DNA of 64,000 nt from Anaerolineae bacterium (GTDB lineage Bacteria > Chloroflexota > Anaerolineae > Aggregatilineales > Phototrophicaceae), in NCBI GenBank assembly GCA_022843745.1, contig JALHNB010000007.1, forward strand, positions 62,001-126,000, given 5' to 3'. Made by a program: the position numbers and the translations under genes. How positions within the stretch are numbered: the stretch's first letter is position 1; every line of letters starts with the position of its first letter. Positions 3,701-8,168 of the stretch are shown here, piece by piece. The notes beneath the pieces are model-generated. The model had not been told where the DNA came from, did not search any database, and saw nothing but the letters and a program-made list of their open reading frames with translations.

Positions 3701-3771
3701 TCGCCTGTGCAAAATCGACAGGGATTTTTGTACAACATCAACGTAAATGTTAAATGTTGTGAGTAAAGATT

Positions 3772-3800
3772 TGACAGCCTCGATGAAACTTGATATGCTC
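3772..3800 (+). promoter_or_regulatory. Sigma-70-type promoter of the aroH operon
   Basis: TTGACA (3772-3777), a 17-base spacer and TATGCT (3795-3800). This is a near-consensus promoter. The start of transcription would be near 3807, leaving a leader of about 240 bases ahead of aroH. Confidence 0.8.
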
Positions 3801-3804
3801 TCTT

Positions 3805-4045
3805 TCGTTATCATAAACGACTAGGACGACCAGGACGATACCGTGCTTAACCCGCAAACTTTCAGCTATTATTATTACTTTAAGAGCGACATAGTAAAGG
3901 GTTGGGCGTTGCCACTTGGGCAAATGGGTCTGGTTCGTTAGTTTTTAAAAATCGAACGTCAAAGGCGCAGGGCATACGCTCCGCGCCTTTTTTATTGCAT
4001 ATCCCAAGTGGCACAAACAACATATACAAGCACAGGGAGGAAAGT
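3805..4045 (+). promoter_or_regulatory. Structured leader RNA with attenuator upstream of aroH
   Basis: This stretch has no gene. It holds a small local hairpin (TTGCC/GGCAA, 3909-3923), a GTTCG/CGAAC hairpin with an A/T-rich inner part near 3933-3957, and an intrinsic terminator at 3961-3993. The segments 3910-3920 (TGCCACTTGGG) and 4003-4013 (CCCAAGTGGCA) are perfect 11-base complements that would enclose the terminator, and the first also forms the competing local hairpin. Alternative folds of this kind suggest transcription attenuation. No T-box sequence or aromatic-rich leader peptide is visible, so the ligand is unknown. Confidence 0.6.
3961..3993 (+). terminator. Intrinsic terminator in the aroH leader
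   Basis: AAAGGCGC pairs with GCGCCTTT around a 14-base loop that can itself pair partly, and the stem runs directly into a T tract. It lies between the promoter at 3772 and aroH, so it would cut short the operon transcript unless overridden. Confidence 0.8.
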
Positions 4046-4444
4046 ATGAGCATGATGGTGCGCGGGGTGCGCGGCGCGACGACAGCCACCGAAGATACAC
4101 CGGAGGCGATCTGGCGTGCGACACAGGAGTTATTGGAGGCGGTGATCGAGGCGAACGGTATTGAAGAAGAATACGTCGCCAGCGCGATCTTTACGACAAC
4201 GCCTGATCTGACGGCGGCTTATCCGGCGAAGGCGGCGCGTGACCTGGGCTGGCACCAGACGGCGCTGATGGGATGCCAGGAAATCGCTGTGCCGAACGGG
4301 ATTCCGAGGTGTATCCGAGTGCTGATTCACTGGAATACGACGAAAAAACTCGGCGAACTGCGCCATATCTACATGCGCGGGGCGGAAAAATTACGACCTG
4401 ATTTTTATCCAGATAACAAAATTGTCTTAAACGGGAGAGACTAA
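4046..4444 (+). CDS. aroH: Chorismate mutase, AroH type
   Basis: Rearranges chorismate to prephenate, the first committed step to phenylalanine and tyrosine. It is a 132-residue monofunctional enzyme of the Bacillus AroH (trimeric) fold. [11 protein letters not shown] contains the active-site Arg, and [21 protein letters not shown], the CQEI Glu, RCIRVLIHW Arg and [14 protein letters not shown] Tyr follow the family order. The start is chosen at 4046 because GGGAGGAAAG precedes it by 2-7 bases; the frame is open further upstream through the terminator, but that part is leader. The DAHP synthase gene follows after 1 bp. Confidence 0.95.
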
Positions 4445-4445
4445 C

Positions 4446-5462
4446 ATGATCGTGGTGATGAAAGTGGATGCAAGTTCAGAGCAGATGGCGCGTGTGATTA
4501 CTCGGATTGAAAGCGATGGTTACAAATCCCACATTTCCGAAGGTGATGAGCGCACGATTATCGGGGTGGTGGGGGAAAGCCCAACGCCGCTGAAGGAAGA
4601 AAATTATGGTGCGATGGAAGGCGTCGATAAAGTCGTGCGAATTTCCGCGCCCTACAAACTCGCCAGCCGGACGTTCCACCCAGCCGATTCCCTTGTGCCG
4701 TTGAATGGCTCAAAAGTGGGCGGCAACAAGGTGGTGGTGATTGCTGGGCCGTGTTCGGTTGAGGGACGCACCGAGATTATTGAGGCGGCCTGCGCGGTCA
4801 AGGAAGCAGGTGCGACTGCTCTGCGGGGTGGCGCATTCAAGCCGCGCACTTCACCCTACAGCTTCCAGGGGCATGGCGAAAAGGGTTTGCAATGGTTGGC
4901 CGAAGCGCGTGAAATGACCGGGCTGCCAATTGTCACCGAAGTGATGGATCCGGCGCTCGTGCCGATGGTCTGCCAATATGCCGATGTGCTGCAAGTCGGC
5001 GCACGCAATATGCAGAATTTCACGCTGCTCAATGCTGTTGGTGAGAGCCAGCACACCGTTCTGCTCAAACGCGGGATGAGCTGCACGATTGAAGATATGC
5101 TGATGGCGGCGGAGTATATTCTGGCGCACGGCAATATGAAGCTGATCCTGTGCGAACGCGGAATCCGCACCTTCGAAAAAGCGACGCGTAATACGTTCGA
5201 TCTGAACGCGATTCCAGTTTTAAAACGGCTGACACATTTGCCCGTGATTGCTGATCCCAGCCATGCTGTCGGTTACTCGGAATATGTCGAACCTGTAGCA
5301 CGGGCGGCTGTCGCGGCGGGCGCGGATGGCCTGATTATCGAAGTTCATCCAAATCCGGCAGAAGCGCTTTCTGATGGGCGGCAGAGTTTGACACCGCAGC
5401 GTTTCGCGTCGATGATGGAGCAGGTACGCAGGATTGCCGAGGCAGTCGGGCGGACGGCTTAA
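4446..5462 (+). CDS. aroF: 3-deoxy-7-phosphoheptulonate (DAHP) synthase, class I-beta
   Basis: Condenses phosphoenolpyruvate with erythrose 4-phosphate, the entry step of the shikimate pathway. It has 338 residues: a ferredoxin-like regulatory domain (about 1-70, the feedback domain of the Thermotoga type) and a TIM barrel. Catalytic and metal motifs are [47 protein letters not shown] and EVHPNP. The ferredoxin-like domain suggests allosteric control by Phe or Tyr. It is paired with aroH, as in organisms where mutase and synthase cooperate. The symbol is generic for the reaction; subfamily names vary. Confidence 0.94.
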
Positions 5463-5467
5463 TATCA

Positions 5468-5947
5468 ATGAATATTCGCCCTGGAACTCTTGAAGATATT
5501 GACCTGCTGGTGGAATTGAACACCGATGTGCAGCGGCTTCATGCCAATGCGCTGCCGCATCTGTTCAAGCAGCCTGACAATCCAGCGGCTATAATTGCTG
5601 ATTTCCGGGAACGGATATTTGCGGATGTGGATGGTCGCGTCTATCTGGCTGAAATTGATGGTGAAGCAGCAGGTTATGTGTATGCGCGGGTGAACCATCG
5701 CCCTGATAATGCCTATACTTACGCTTTGGATACGATTCATATCGACCAGATTGGGGTCAAACCGGTCTATCAGGGACTAGGATGTGGTCGCGCATTGATC
5801 CACATTGTGATCGATTGGGCGCGTGCCGAAAAAATCAATCGGGTGACGCTGGATACGGCTGGGTTCAACACGGAAGCGCAGGCATTTTTCAAGAAGCAGG
5901 GATTTGAAGTTTCTACTTATCGGATGGGTGTCACCCTTAGCGGTTGA
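5468..5947 (+). CDS. GNAT-family N-acetyltransferase
   Basis: A single GNAT domain of 159 residues. The acetyl-CoA motif is in IGVKPVYQGLGCGRALI (Q/RxxGxG/A type) and the C-terminal AQAFFKKQGFEV motif follows. The substrate cannot be told. It lies between DAHP synthase and tyrA within the same transcript (5 bp after the former, about 14 bp before the latter), so it may be expressed with the aromatic genes without acting in the pathway. Confidence 0.85.
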   Translation: MNIRPGTLEDIDLLVELNTDVQRLHANALPHLFKQPDNPAAIIADFRERIFADVDGRVYLAEIDGEAAGYVYARVNHRPDNAYTYALDTIHIDQIGVKPVYQGLGCGRALIHIVIDWARAEKINRVTLDTAGFNTEAQAFFKKQGFEVSTYRMGVTLSG

Positions 5948-5961
5948 CTCATGAGGAAGAT

Positions 5962-6855
5962 ATGTCAGCGAGTGGCTTTAGCAGCCGACATTTAGCAATT
6001 GTAGGTTTGGGTTTGATGGGGGGATCGCTGGCGTTGGCGCTGCGCCAGTCGGCGGAGACGATCACGGGCGTAGACCCCAGCGCGGCGACGCGGGAGTATG
6101 CGCTAGCGCGTGGCATTGTCGATCATGCGACGGATGATTTGCGCGAAGGGGTATCACAGGCCGATCTGGTGATTCTGGCCGCGCCTGTGACACTCATTGC
6201 TGAGATGCTGCGGCGGCGCATTGGTTCGTATCTGCGCTCCAATACGCTGCTGCTGGACATCGGCAGTACGAAGCAGGATATATGCGATGCGATGGCAAAT
6301 TTGCCCGTCGGAATCCATGCCATTGGCGGGCATCCGATGACGGGCAAGGAAAACAGCGGTGTCACCGCCAGCGATGGGGCATTATATCAAGGTCGTCCGT
6401 TTGTGTTATGCCCGACGCGCCGGACAACGCCTGCCGCACGGCTGCGGGCCTTGTCGATGATCGAAGCGCTGGGCGCAGTGCCGATTGAAATGGAAGCCAA
6501 GCGGCACGATCAGGTTGTCGCGGCGATCAGTCACCTGCCATATTTGCTCAGTTCAGCGCTGGTGGCAACGGTTGCCAAGCAGGGCGAAACCGATGATGCG
6601 GTGTGGCAGCTTGCGGCGGGCGGCTTTCGTGATATGTCGCGGTTGGCAGGCCAGGATATTAAAATGATGAGCGATATTCTGAGCACAAATACCCAGGCTG
6701 TGGCAACCTTGCTGGCGCTATTCAGGGTACAGCTTGCACTTCTCGAAGCGATGTTGATCTCGCATGATGACCAGCACCTCGCCGAGTCGCTGAAGCCGAC
6801 GCGAGAGGCGCGGATAAAATGGTTTGAACGATACGAAAACGGGGTGAAAAAATAA
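5962..6855 (+). CDS. tyrA: Prephenate dehydrogenase
   Basis: Oxidatively decarboxylates prephenate to 4-hydroxyphenylpyruvate in tyrosine synthesis. An N-terminal Rossmann domain has VGLGLMGGSLA (GxGxxG) and the GHPMTGKENSG segment carries the catalytic His region; an alpha-helical dimerisation domain follows (AISHLPYLLSSAL). There is no ACT domain after it. The ATG at 5962 is preceded by GAGGAAG and gives 297 residues; a TTG at 5944 in the same frame lacks a site. The stop overlaps the aroA start by 1 bp. Confidence 0.93.
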   Translation: MSASGFSSRHLAIVGLGLMGGSLALALRQSAETITGVDPSAATREYALARGIVDHATDDLREGVSQADLVILAAPVTLIAEMLRRRIGSYLRSNTLLLDIGSTKQDICDAMANLPVGIHAIGGHPMTGKENSGVTASDGALYQGRPFVLCPTRRTTPAARLRALSMIEALGAVPIEMEAKRHDQVVAAISHLPYLLSSALVATVAKQGETDDAVWQLAAGGFRDMSRLAGQDIKMMSDILSTNTQAVATLLALFRVQLALLEAMLISHDDQHLAESLKPTREARIKWFERYENGVKK

Positions 6856-8168
6856 TGGCAACAGGGAGTTTTGTGGTGCGCCCCACTGATGGGCTGCACG
6901 GTGAGGCAACCGTTCCGGGCGATAAATCCATTTCACATCGGGCGGTGATGTTTGGTGCGCTGGCGCAGGGGACGACCCATGTACGTGGCTGGCTGGCGGC
7001 AGGCGATACCGAAGCCTCACTCAGTAGTATTCAGGGTTTAGGTGTACAGGTCATTCGACACAACGCCAACGATCTGACAATTTATGGTGGCGAACTGCAC
7101 CCACCGACGGAAACACTCAATCTGGTGAACGCGGGTACAGGAATCCGTCTGCTGGCGGGGATTATGGCAGGACAGCCTTTCGGAAGTGTGCTGGATGGCA
7201 CAGAACAGCTTCGCCGCCGTCCGATGAAGCGTATTATGGAACCGCTGCGTCTGATGGGGGCTGACATCACCGCCACCAATGACCGCGCACCGCTGACGAT
7301 TAAACCTGCGAATCTCAAGGGTATTCGCTACGAGATGCCGATGGCAAGCGCACAGGTGAAAAGCAGCATCCTTCTGGCGGGTTTGTTCGCGGATGGCGCG
7401 ACGACAGTGGTCGAACCCGGCCCGGCGCGTGACCATACCGAGCGCATGTTGAGTGCGATGGGTGTGAATCTGGCGGTTGAAGGCCACAGCGTGACGGTGA
7501 CACCGGGAAAAACACTCCAGGCGCAGGATTTTAGCGTACCGGGTGATTTTTCATCGGCAGCGTTTCTGATCGTCGCGGCCTGCATCACGCCGGACAGCGA
7601 CATCACCCTTACCGGAATCAACCTGAACGAGACTCGAACGGGCTTGCTGGATGTGCTGCTGGAAATGGGCGCGGACATCACCGTCAGCGACAAGGGACTC
7701 GAAGCAGGCGAACCAGCCGGGACATTGCAAATCCGGCACAGTGCGCTCAAGGCTGTCGAGATTGGCGGGGATACGGTTGTGCGGATGATCGACGAATTTC
7801 CAGTGTTTATGGTCGCGGCGCTGTGCGCGGAAGGCCGCACGGTTGTCCGTAATGCTGAAGAACTGCGCGTCAAAGAGACAGATCGTATCAAGGTGATGGC
7901 GGGGGAACTGAAAAAACTGGGTGCGGAAATTACGGAAACCGAAGATGGCTTCATTATTGATGGCCCACAAAAATTGATGGGCGCGATTGTCGATGGGCAT
8001 GACGATCATCGTGTGGCGATGAGCATGACCATCGCTGGGTTGATCGCCGACGAGCAGACGGTTGTCAATGACTCGAAATGCGCGGGCGATTCGTTCCCTG
8101 GTTTTGCCGAAACGTTGGCGCGGCTGGGTGGGCAGCTTGTTGAGCAGGATGCTTTAGAGGAAGCGTGA
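6855..8168 (+). CDS. aroA: 3-phosphoshikimate 1-carboxyvinyltransferase (EPSP synthase)
   Basis: Transfers enolpyruvyl from PEP to shikimate 3-phosphate. It has 437 residues, the usual length. GDKSISHRAVMFGAL at the N-terminus holds the substrate Lys and Ser; NAGTGIRLLAG, LRRRPMKRI, SAQVKSSILLAGL, IDEFPVFMVAALCAEG and the RVKETDRI and DHRVAMS motifs follow. The NAGTG loop is of the glyphosate-sensitive type apart from local variation, as far as sequence alone can say. It is coupled to tyrA and ends the first block; 250 bp of repeats separate it from aroE. Confidence 0.97.
   Translation: MATGSFVVRPTDGLHGEATVPGDKSISHRAVMFGALAQGTTHVRGWLAAGDTEASLSSIQGLGVQVIRHNANDLTIYGGELHPPTETLNLVNAGTGIRLLAGIMAGQPFGSVLDGTEQLRRRPMKRIMEPLRLMGADITATNDRAPLTIKPANLKGIRYEMPMASAQVKSSILLAGLFADGATTVVEPGPARDHTERMLSAMGVNLAVEGHSVTVTPGKTLQAQDFSVPGDFSSAAFLIVAACITPDSDITLTGINLNETRTGLLDVLLEMGADITVSDKGLEAGEPAGTLQIRHSALKAVEIGGDTVVRMIDEFPVFMVAALCAEGRTVVRNAEELRVKETDRIKVMAGELKKLGAEITETEDGFIIDGPQKLMGAIVDGHDDHRVAMSMTIAGLIADEQTVVNDSKCAGDSFPGFAETLARLGGQLVEQDALEEA

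Follow-up and report, generated by a model that had tools for sequence, protein, structure and literature searches.

The leader of the aroH operon in the 64-kb window (the whole stretch of DNA analysed here, 64,000 nucleotides of a 7.96-Mb genome, G000, in 117 contigs) very probably acts as an attenuator of the classical, ribosome-mediated type, predicted to sense charged tRNA-Tyr (and tRNA-Phe) by way of a leader peptide. The initial annotation had proposed that an attenuator controls this operon, and the leader peptide, terminator and antiterminator evidence described below supports that proposal. The element occupies the interval between the end of trpA (3700) and the start of aroH (4046), which holds a good promoter followed by a 240-base leader; all window features lie on the plus strand. 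A consensus scan placed the promoter, of the sigma-70 type, at 3771-3799 (TTGACA-17-TATGCT with a TG before the -10 element, 10/12), so that the near-consensus promoter previously assigned to 3772-3800 is present and promoter-like, with the earlier coordinates one base off.

Translation of the leader revealed a 32-codon ORF that runs from a GTG at 3843 to a TAG at 3941, encodes VLNPQTFSYYYYFKSDIVKGWALPLGQMGLVR and follows a Shine-Dalgarno-like AGGA (3832-3835) located 7 nt 5' of the start. Within this ORF lie the putative control codons TTC AGC TAT TAT TAT TAC TTT (3861-3881), which specify FSYYYYF. The stretch that the initial annotation had described as 240 non-coding bases with no aromatic leader peptide thus contains both an ORF and an aromatic codon run. 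The leader codons match the product of the operon, since the downstream genes encode a type I chorismate mutase (aroH, 4046-4444, PF07736, Pfam E 1.6e-44, with the ribosome-binding site GGGAGG at 4035-4040), a DAHP synthase (aroF, 4446-5462, PF00793 with PF18152, Pfam E 1.9e-81), a prephenate dehydrogenase (tyrA, 5944-6855, PF02153 and PF20463) and an EPSP synthase (aroA, 6855-8168, PF00275), genes that by their Pfam assignments serve Tyr/Phe synthesis. Two hallmarks of leader-peptide attenuators are found here: a small reading frame in which codons for the product of the pathway abound, and a terminator between this ORF and the first gene. The dominance of Tyr extends to the relatives: in the best seven-codon windows of 97 non-redundant leaders, 337 of 679 residues are Tyr and 189 are Phe. 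A Shine-Dalgarno match of at least 4 bases was found in only 34/80 leaders, and most leader starts of the relatives are thus not confidently assignable. A function for the conserved C-terminal part of the leader peptide was considered and rejected, because within one genus a one-base difference shifts both frame and stop (TCTGGGTGA versus TCTGGGGTGATTCGCGCTG) and leaves the RNA nearly unchanged.

The terminator (segments 3:4) lies at 3961-3993 (AAAGGCGC..GCGCCTTTTTT). A simple scan of the window for consensus promoter and terminator patterns did not pick it up, and the support for the intrinsic terminator that had been read at these coordinates comes from compensatory changes in a structural alignment (A1) of 46 leaders out of the 90 family loci. 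In this alignment 98% of the pair cells are kept and 7 of the 11 pairs have changed on both sides (0/500 shuffles). The predicted antiterminator pairs segment 2 (3904-3913) with segment 3 (3971-3981), the latter inside the terminator, and is distinct from an 11-base complement in the same leader that is discussed below. Evidence for segment 2 is its pairing with 3971-3981 in the minimum-energy fold of an RNA that ends at 3982 and has its Tyr codons held by a ribosome; evidence for segment 3 comes from comparing the binding of segment 2 to its own and to swapped terminators. For this swapped-partner comparison, 147 loci, distant ones included, were reduced to 97 non-redundant loci, which were also used for the codon, hairpin and ACAUA counts. 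Segment 2 bound its own terminator with an average of -26.7 kcal/mol versus -23.0 kcal/mol for swapped partners, a difference reached in 0/20000 permutations of loci that are not independent by descent, and the own terminator ranked in the best 10% of partners in only 39/97 of these not fully independent loci. In the family alignment, the antiterminator, in which segment 2 joins the terminator's loop and inner arms, is paired in 79% of cells versus 31-56% when slid. Its column-wise covariation in the 46-leader alignment was not above that of shuffles, 184/500 of which reached its score, and the advantage of segment 2 over its own dinucleotide shuffles was modest (80 loci of the family with a median p of 0.11, 35% of them at p ≤0.05; p 0.14 for the window). 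Five loci (L042, L046, L051, L053 and L073) were left out of the 85 family leaders to give the 80 used for these shuffles, for the counts of the 11-base complement and for those of start codons.

Predicted folds of the window leader are consistent with mutual exclusion of antiterminator and terminator, as is the partner-swap result, and with release of the antiterminator by a ribosome that occupies these codons of the leader. For an RNA that stops at 3982 and has a ribosome over its Tyr codons, the fold with the antiterminator forced was the minimum-energy fold (-23.0 kcal/mol), whereas with no ribosome the antiterminator was 4.7 kcal/mol worse than the minimum. Once complete, the terminator beats the antiterminator by 2 kcal/mol in the predicted folds even with the stalled ribosome included, and the switch must therefore be kinetic. 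Kinetic switching is usual in known attenuators, and stalling of the ribosome on a leader peptide is the textbook mechanism of attenuation. By this mechanism, transcription would start near 3806 and a ribosome would then translate the leader. If Tyr or Phe were scarce, the ribosome would stall on the YYYYF codons, segment 2 would pair with segment 3, no terminator would form and the operon would be transcribed; if both were plentiful, the ribosome would cover segment 2, the terminator would form and transcription would stop. In a free leader that is not translated, the terminator would be favoured as well. The attenuator would control aroH-aroF-tyrA and probably also the shikimate genes further 3'. 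The ORF, its codons, the terminator, the antiterminator complementarity and their conservation were computed directly; from them we infer the stalling, the tRNA of most relevance, the use of the promoter, the extent of the operon and the fold change in expression.

The arrangement is conserved throughout the family of the window's genome. AroH is present in 91/98 genomes of the family, and upstream DNA was retrieved for 90 of the 91 aroH loci. A Tyr/Phe-rich frame, with no start codon demanded, lies at the equivalent site before aroH in 85 of these 90 loci at a score of at least 5 and in 72 at a score of at least 7. Among the 90 loci scored, no leader was found in L006, L027, L054 and L060, and the fifth exception, L056, has an upstream sequence that is too short. 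A second set comprised the best 80 of 584 named aroH matches, of which 15 repeat earlier loci, 14 of them from the family; the closest of these relatives carry titles such as Anaerolineae or Chloroflexi. A score of at least 7 together with an in-frame start was reached in 49 of these best 80 of 584 loci, versus 0.5% of 400 dinucleotide shuffles and 1/80 antisense stretches scoring at least 7. Within the same best 80 of 584, leader plus terminator were found in 49/59 loci with Chloroflexota titles (36/45 once the 14 family repeats are removed) and in 0/21 titled as other phyla, and the titles with both parts include Roseiflexus, Oscillochloris, Thermoflexus and Aggregatilineales. One record titled Pleurocapsa (L176) was tallied under Chloroflexota. 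This record (contig JAHHHY010000001.1), titled Pleurocapsa minor, a cyanobacterium, matches a contig of the family genome G030, and its title is therefore probably a mislabel. Six of the ten Chloroflexota loci scored as missing (L193, L196, L209, L221, L223 and L241) are Chloroflexales-like and do have a leader, followed by a terminator-like hairpin and then a pyrimidine tract (such as CCCTCTCTGT or CCCTTTCTGT) with no long T-run. Tracts of this type (for example CCCTCTCTGT, CCCTTTCTGT) stand in place of a plain T-run in the Chloroflexales-like loci L193, L206, L209, L221, L223 and L241.

A covariance model (R1) built from 46 leaders of the family extends this distribution. At a cut-off of E ≤0.01 per genome, which should yield about 3 matches by chance in 298 genomes, R1 matches 84/98 family genomes (the 46 model-building leaders included) and 59/298 genomes of the class, 13 of these being family members. 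We inspected 27 matches outside the family and found an aromatic-rich frame in 26 (for example FGFYYYYYP in L135 and GYYYYYYYA in L145), with only three consecutive Tyr in L159; a start motif of the AroH type (RGVRGA, RGIRGA or a close variant) is present in 26/27, either in the ORF shown or at another site of the locus, and L129 precedes a DAHP-synthase-like ORF. On the strength of these sequence comparisons, the attenuator appears to be widespread in Chloroflexota. A second copy of the element, with the leader TYCSYYF, was seen before another DAHP-synthase-like ORF (L148, G059:C37:145596-145728).

Just 3' of the control codons lies a further conserved hairpin, P1 (3887-3904), in which 3887-3890 pair with 3901-3904 and ACATAG (3889-3894) occupies part of the 5' strand and the loop. 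P1 is paired in 82% of cells of the 46-leader alignment and its covariation score was matched by 0/500 shuffles; its second pair is CG in 17 leaders, GC in 8, UG in 4, UA in 2, AU in 1 and GU in 1, and is unpaired in 8. The leader peptides read H..G, D..R or Y..R at this site because the P1 pairing changes jointly. A hairpin after the control codons is also discernible by eye in Chloroflexales sequences, and across the 97 loci the 45 bases past the codon run held no general excess of hairpins over shuffles. P1 probably acts as a pause or protector hairpin. A covariance search had been suggested in the initial annotation; the terminator and P1 have compensatory changes, the column-wise covariation of the antiterminator does not rise above shuffles and the 11-base complement is private to the window's genome.

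The motif ACAUA, located in the P1 loop or next to it, occurs past the control codons in 22/42 family segments (0.54 expected) and in 6/10 Chloroflexales segments (0.12 expected). An Ile codon follows the run in 69/85 family leaders and is AUA in 66 of these 69, the other 16/85 leaders being without Ile, whereas AUA accounts for 11/200 Ile codons in ten genes of the window. Relative to the leader frame, the motif is read as CAC ATA or GAC ATA in the family and, for example, as CCA CAT ACG in Chloroflexales (L195). Since the Chloroflexales copies lie in another reading frame, ACAUA must be kept as RNA and not as codons, and a rare-codon role of the conserved AUA was rejected on the same ground. 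A hairpin, CCAGCC-CACAUAC-GGCUGG, was observed 3' of the control codons in the Chloroflexales-related L195.

These observations bear on a broader reading, in which the attenuator is accompanied by a second function of P1 and ACAUA, such as an RNA polymerase pause, a factor site or a contact with the stalled ribosome, that would serve timing or a second signal. We regard this as possible, with the balance tipping against it: the covariation of P1 and the preservation of ACAUA as RNA across differing frames speak for it, but the motif is present in only 3/51 loci elsewhere (0.62 expected), one of which (L148) comes from a family genome, a partner sequence was not seen by eye, and ACAUA may simply be a favoured loop. 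Our guess is that the motif makes RNA polymerase pause or binds a factor. Somewhat more speculative still is the combined proposition that an ancient, phylum-wide, Tyr-dominated attenuator carries P1/ACAUA as an extra part (a pause or factor-binding signal) absent from described attenuators and that its chassis has been recoded, for instance to Thr/Met before aspartokinase.

The 11-base complement between 3910-3920 and 4003-4013, on which the initial annotation had based its switch, is indeed perfect, is equalled in only 1/2000 shuffles of the downstream stretch and forms part of the lowest-energy fold computed for the whole leader. The left strand can also form the small hairpin of its own that had been noted, TTGCC-ACTTG-GGCAA (3909-3923; 3909-3913 with 3919-3923), as read from the sequence. 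The regulatory role assigned to the complement found no support. It cannot be the usual antiterminator, because its right arm (4003-4013) is transcribed only after the terminator, and in 79 relatives such a match never exceeds 6 bases. It would seem highly improbable that the complement works as a switch in another way, for example by enclosing the terminator or by masking the leader in transcripts that read through: against its perfection, its rarity by chance and its place in the full-leader fold stand its absence from the relatives, the late synthesis of the right arm and the spacing between terminator and aroH, which is below 40 bases in 63/80 loci. The complement may have arisen by accident or be an addition peculiar to this genome.

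Equally little, and if anything slightly less, can be said for an undescribed riboswitch-like RNA that takes an aromatic amino acid, chorismate or some other small molecule directly as its ligand and in which the ORF is incidental. The enrichment of ACAUA in family and Chloroflexales segments and the near-uniform use of AUA for the Ile codon after the run point to some conservation as RNA past the control codons, but the aromatic codon run is retained in widely diverged aroH loci, and P1, segment 2 and the terminator largely account for the conserved pieces. Moreover, Rfam gave no match in the 64-kb window at gathering score, the described amino acid leader families among them, and only five matches on the leader, all below gathering score and none a riboswitch or T-box. 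The described families include those of Gammaproteobacteria. A riboswitch was rejected accordingly for want of an aptamer match in window and leader, in agreement with the earlier statement that neither a known riboswitch core nor a T-box is visible. The initial annotation had further suggested an undescribed class responding to an aromatic amino acid, chorismate or tRNA; we retain from this the response to an aromatic amino acid, which the codons imply, and discard the riboswitch-like class, since a Tyr/Phe leader peptide explains the sensing through ribosome stalling. A T-box reading uncharged tRNA directly, although available to the lineage, was rejected as next to impossible, as RF00230 matches neither the window at gathering score nor the leader, even with E allowed up to 5, and yet is found (117 bits) before trpE of the same genome (L248:1083-1337, G000:C7), about 7.5 kb 5' of the window. 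This genome thus seems to rely on separate kinds of RNA sensor for its trp and Tyr/Phe branches.

The attenuators of E. coli pheL-pheA, pheST and trpL offer a well-described anatomy for comparison with the Tyr/Phe leader-peptide attenuator proposed here, which would operate in the manner of trpL, pheL and the aroR attenuator of C. glutamicum. With pheL-pheA and pheST, the window leader shares a leader peptide, alternative hairpins and an aromatic target, the aromatic pathway or the tRNA-Phe synthetase (available text of PMC11802643), but these systems use Phe codons, and no relation in sequence emerged, the window having no Rfam match that reaches the gathering score. With trpL it shares the order of its predicted parts, namely control codons, a hairpin directly after them, an overlapping antiterminator strand and a terminator (same text), whereas trpL has Trp codons and governs the trp operon, and trpE of the window's genome has a T-box. 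A further close system is aroR-aroF of Corynebacterium glutamicum (Neshat et al. 2014), where, according to the available text of PMC11802643, an aromatic leader peptide with Phe-Tyr-Phe precedes a DAHP synthase operon and stalling enhances transcription, Phe limitation doing so and Tyr having no effect. Unlike in aroR, Tyr leads the run in the window leader (4 Tyr, 2 Phe), the operon starts with a gene for chorismate mutase of type I, and the organism belongs to another phylum.

As far as the accessible parts of these sources go, the authors of an attenuation survey from 2010 were aware of no leader peptide system beyond Proteobacteria and Actinobacteria except for the Firmicutes case that they presented themselves and for ermC, whose leader is atypical (PMC2965389), His leader peptides have been described in Firmicutes (PMC9413887), conserved upstream RNA regulatory structures were not found for Phe/Tyr operons of Actinobacteria (PMC1262725), and Chloroflexi were counted among the groups with genomes too few or too related to judge (PMC4833913). 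The trpE T-box of the window's genome agrees with the trp-gene T-boxes reported, in the part of PMC2494555 available, from two Dehalococcoides genomes. Our search of the open literature, with subscription journals mostly beyond its reach, found no report of an aroH leader attenuator in Chloroflexota. The attenuator class is known, the spread in Chloroflexota and the emphasis on Tyr seem new, and priority is uncertain. The findings place a predicted leader-peptide system ahead of the first gene of the aromatic pathway in a large part of the Chloroflexota, beyond the phyla named in the accessible text of PMC2965389. Tyr predominates among its control codons, and the window's genome has in addition a T-box in its trp branch. 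They also provide R1, a covariance model with which the element can be annotated, and a large set of natural variants in which to follow the co-evolution of control codons, hairpins and terminators.

R1 also matches leaders with Thr/Met runs (such as TTPTTMMTMMP and TTTTMMTMP) and a terminator before aspartate kinase genes (L149-L154, from the family genomes G051, G056, G084, G091, G073 and G062), which, from their sequences, are probably Thr/Met attenuators of similar build. A candidate antiterminator strand is seen in 6/6 of them, weakly in L150, and a further weak R1 match lies at G075:C16:1210414. The window's own genome has a frame FSMKSGAVFSTSTMGTGTSHKIMRGDFRLP with a terminator before an aspartokinase gene (L246; G000:C24, upstream of 28061), possibly a Thr/Met attenuator of the same kind.
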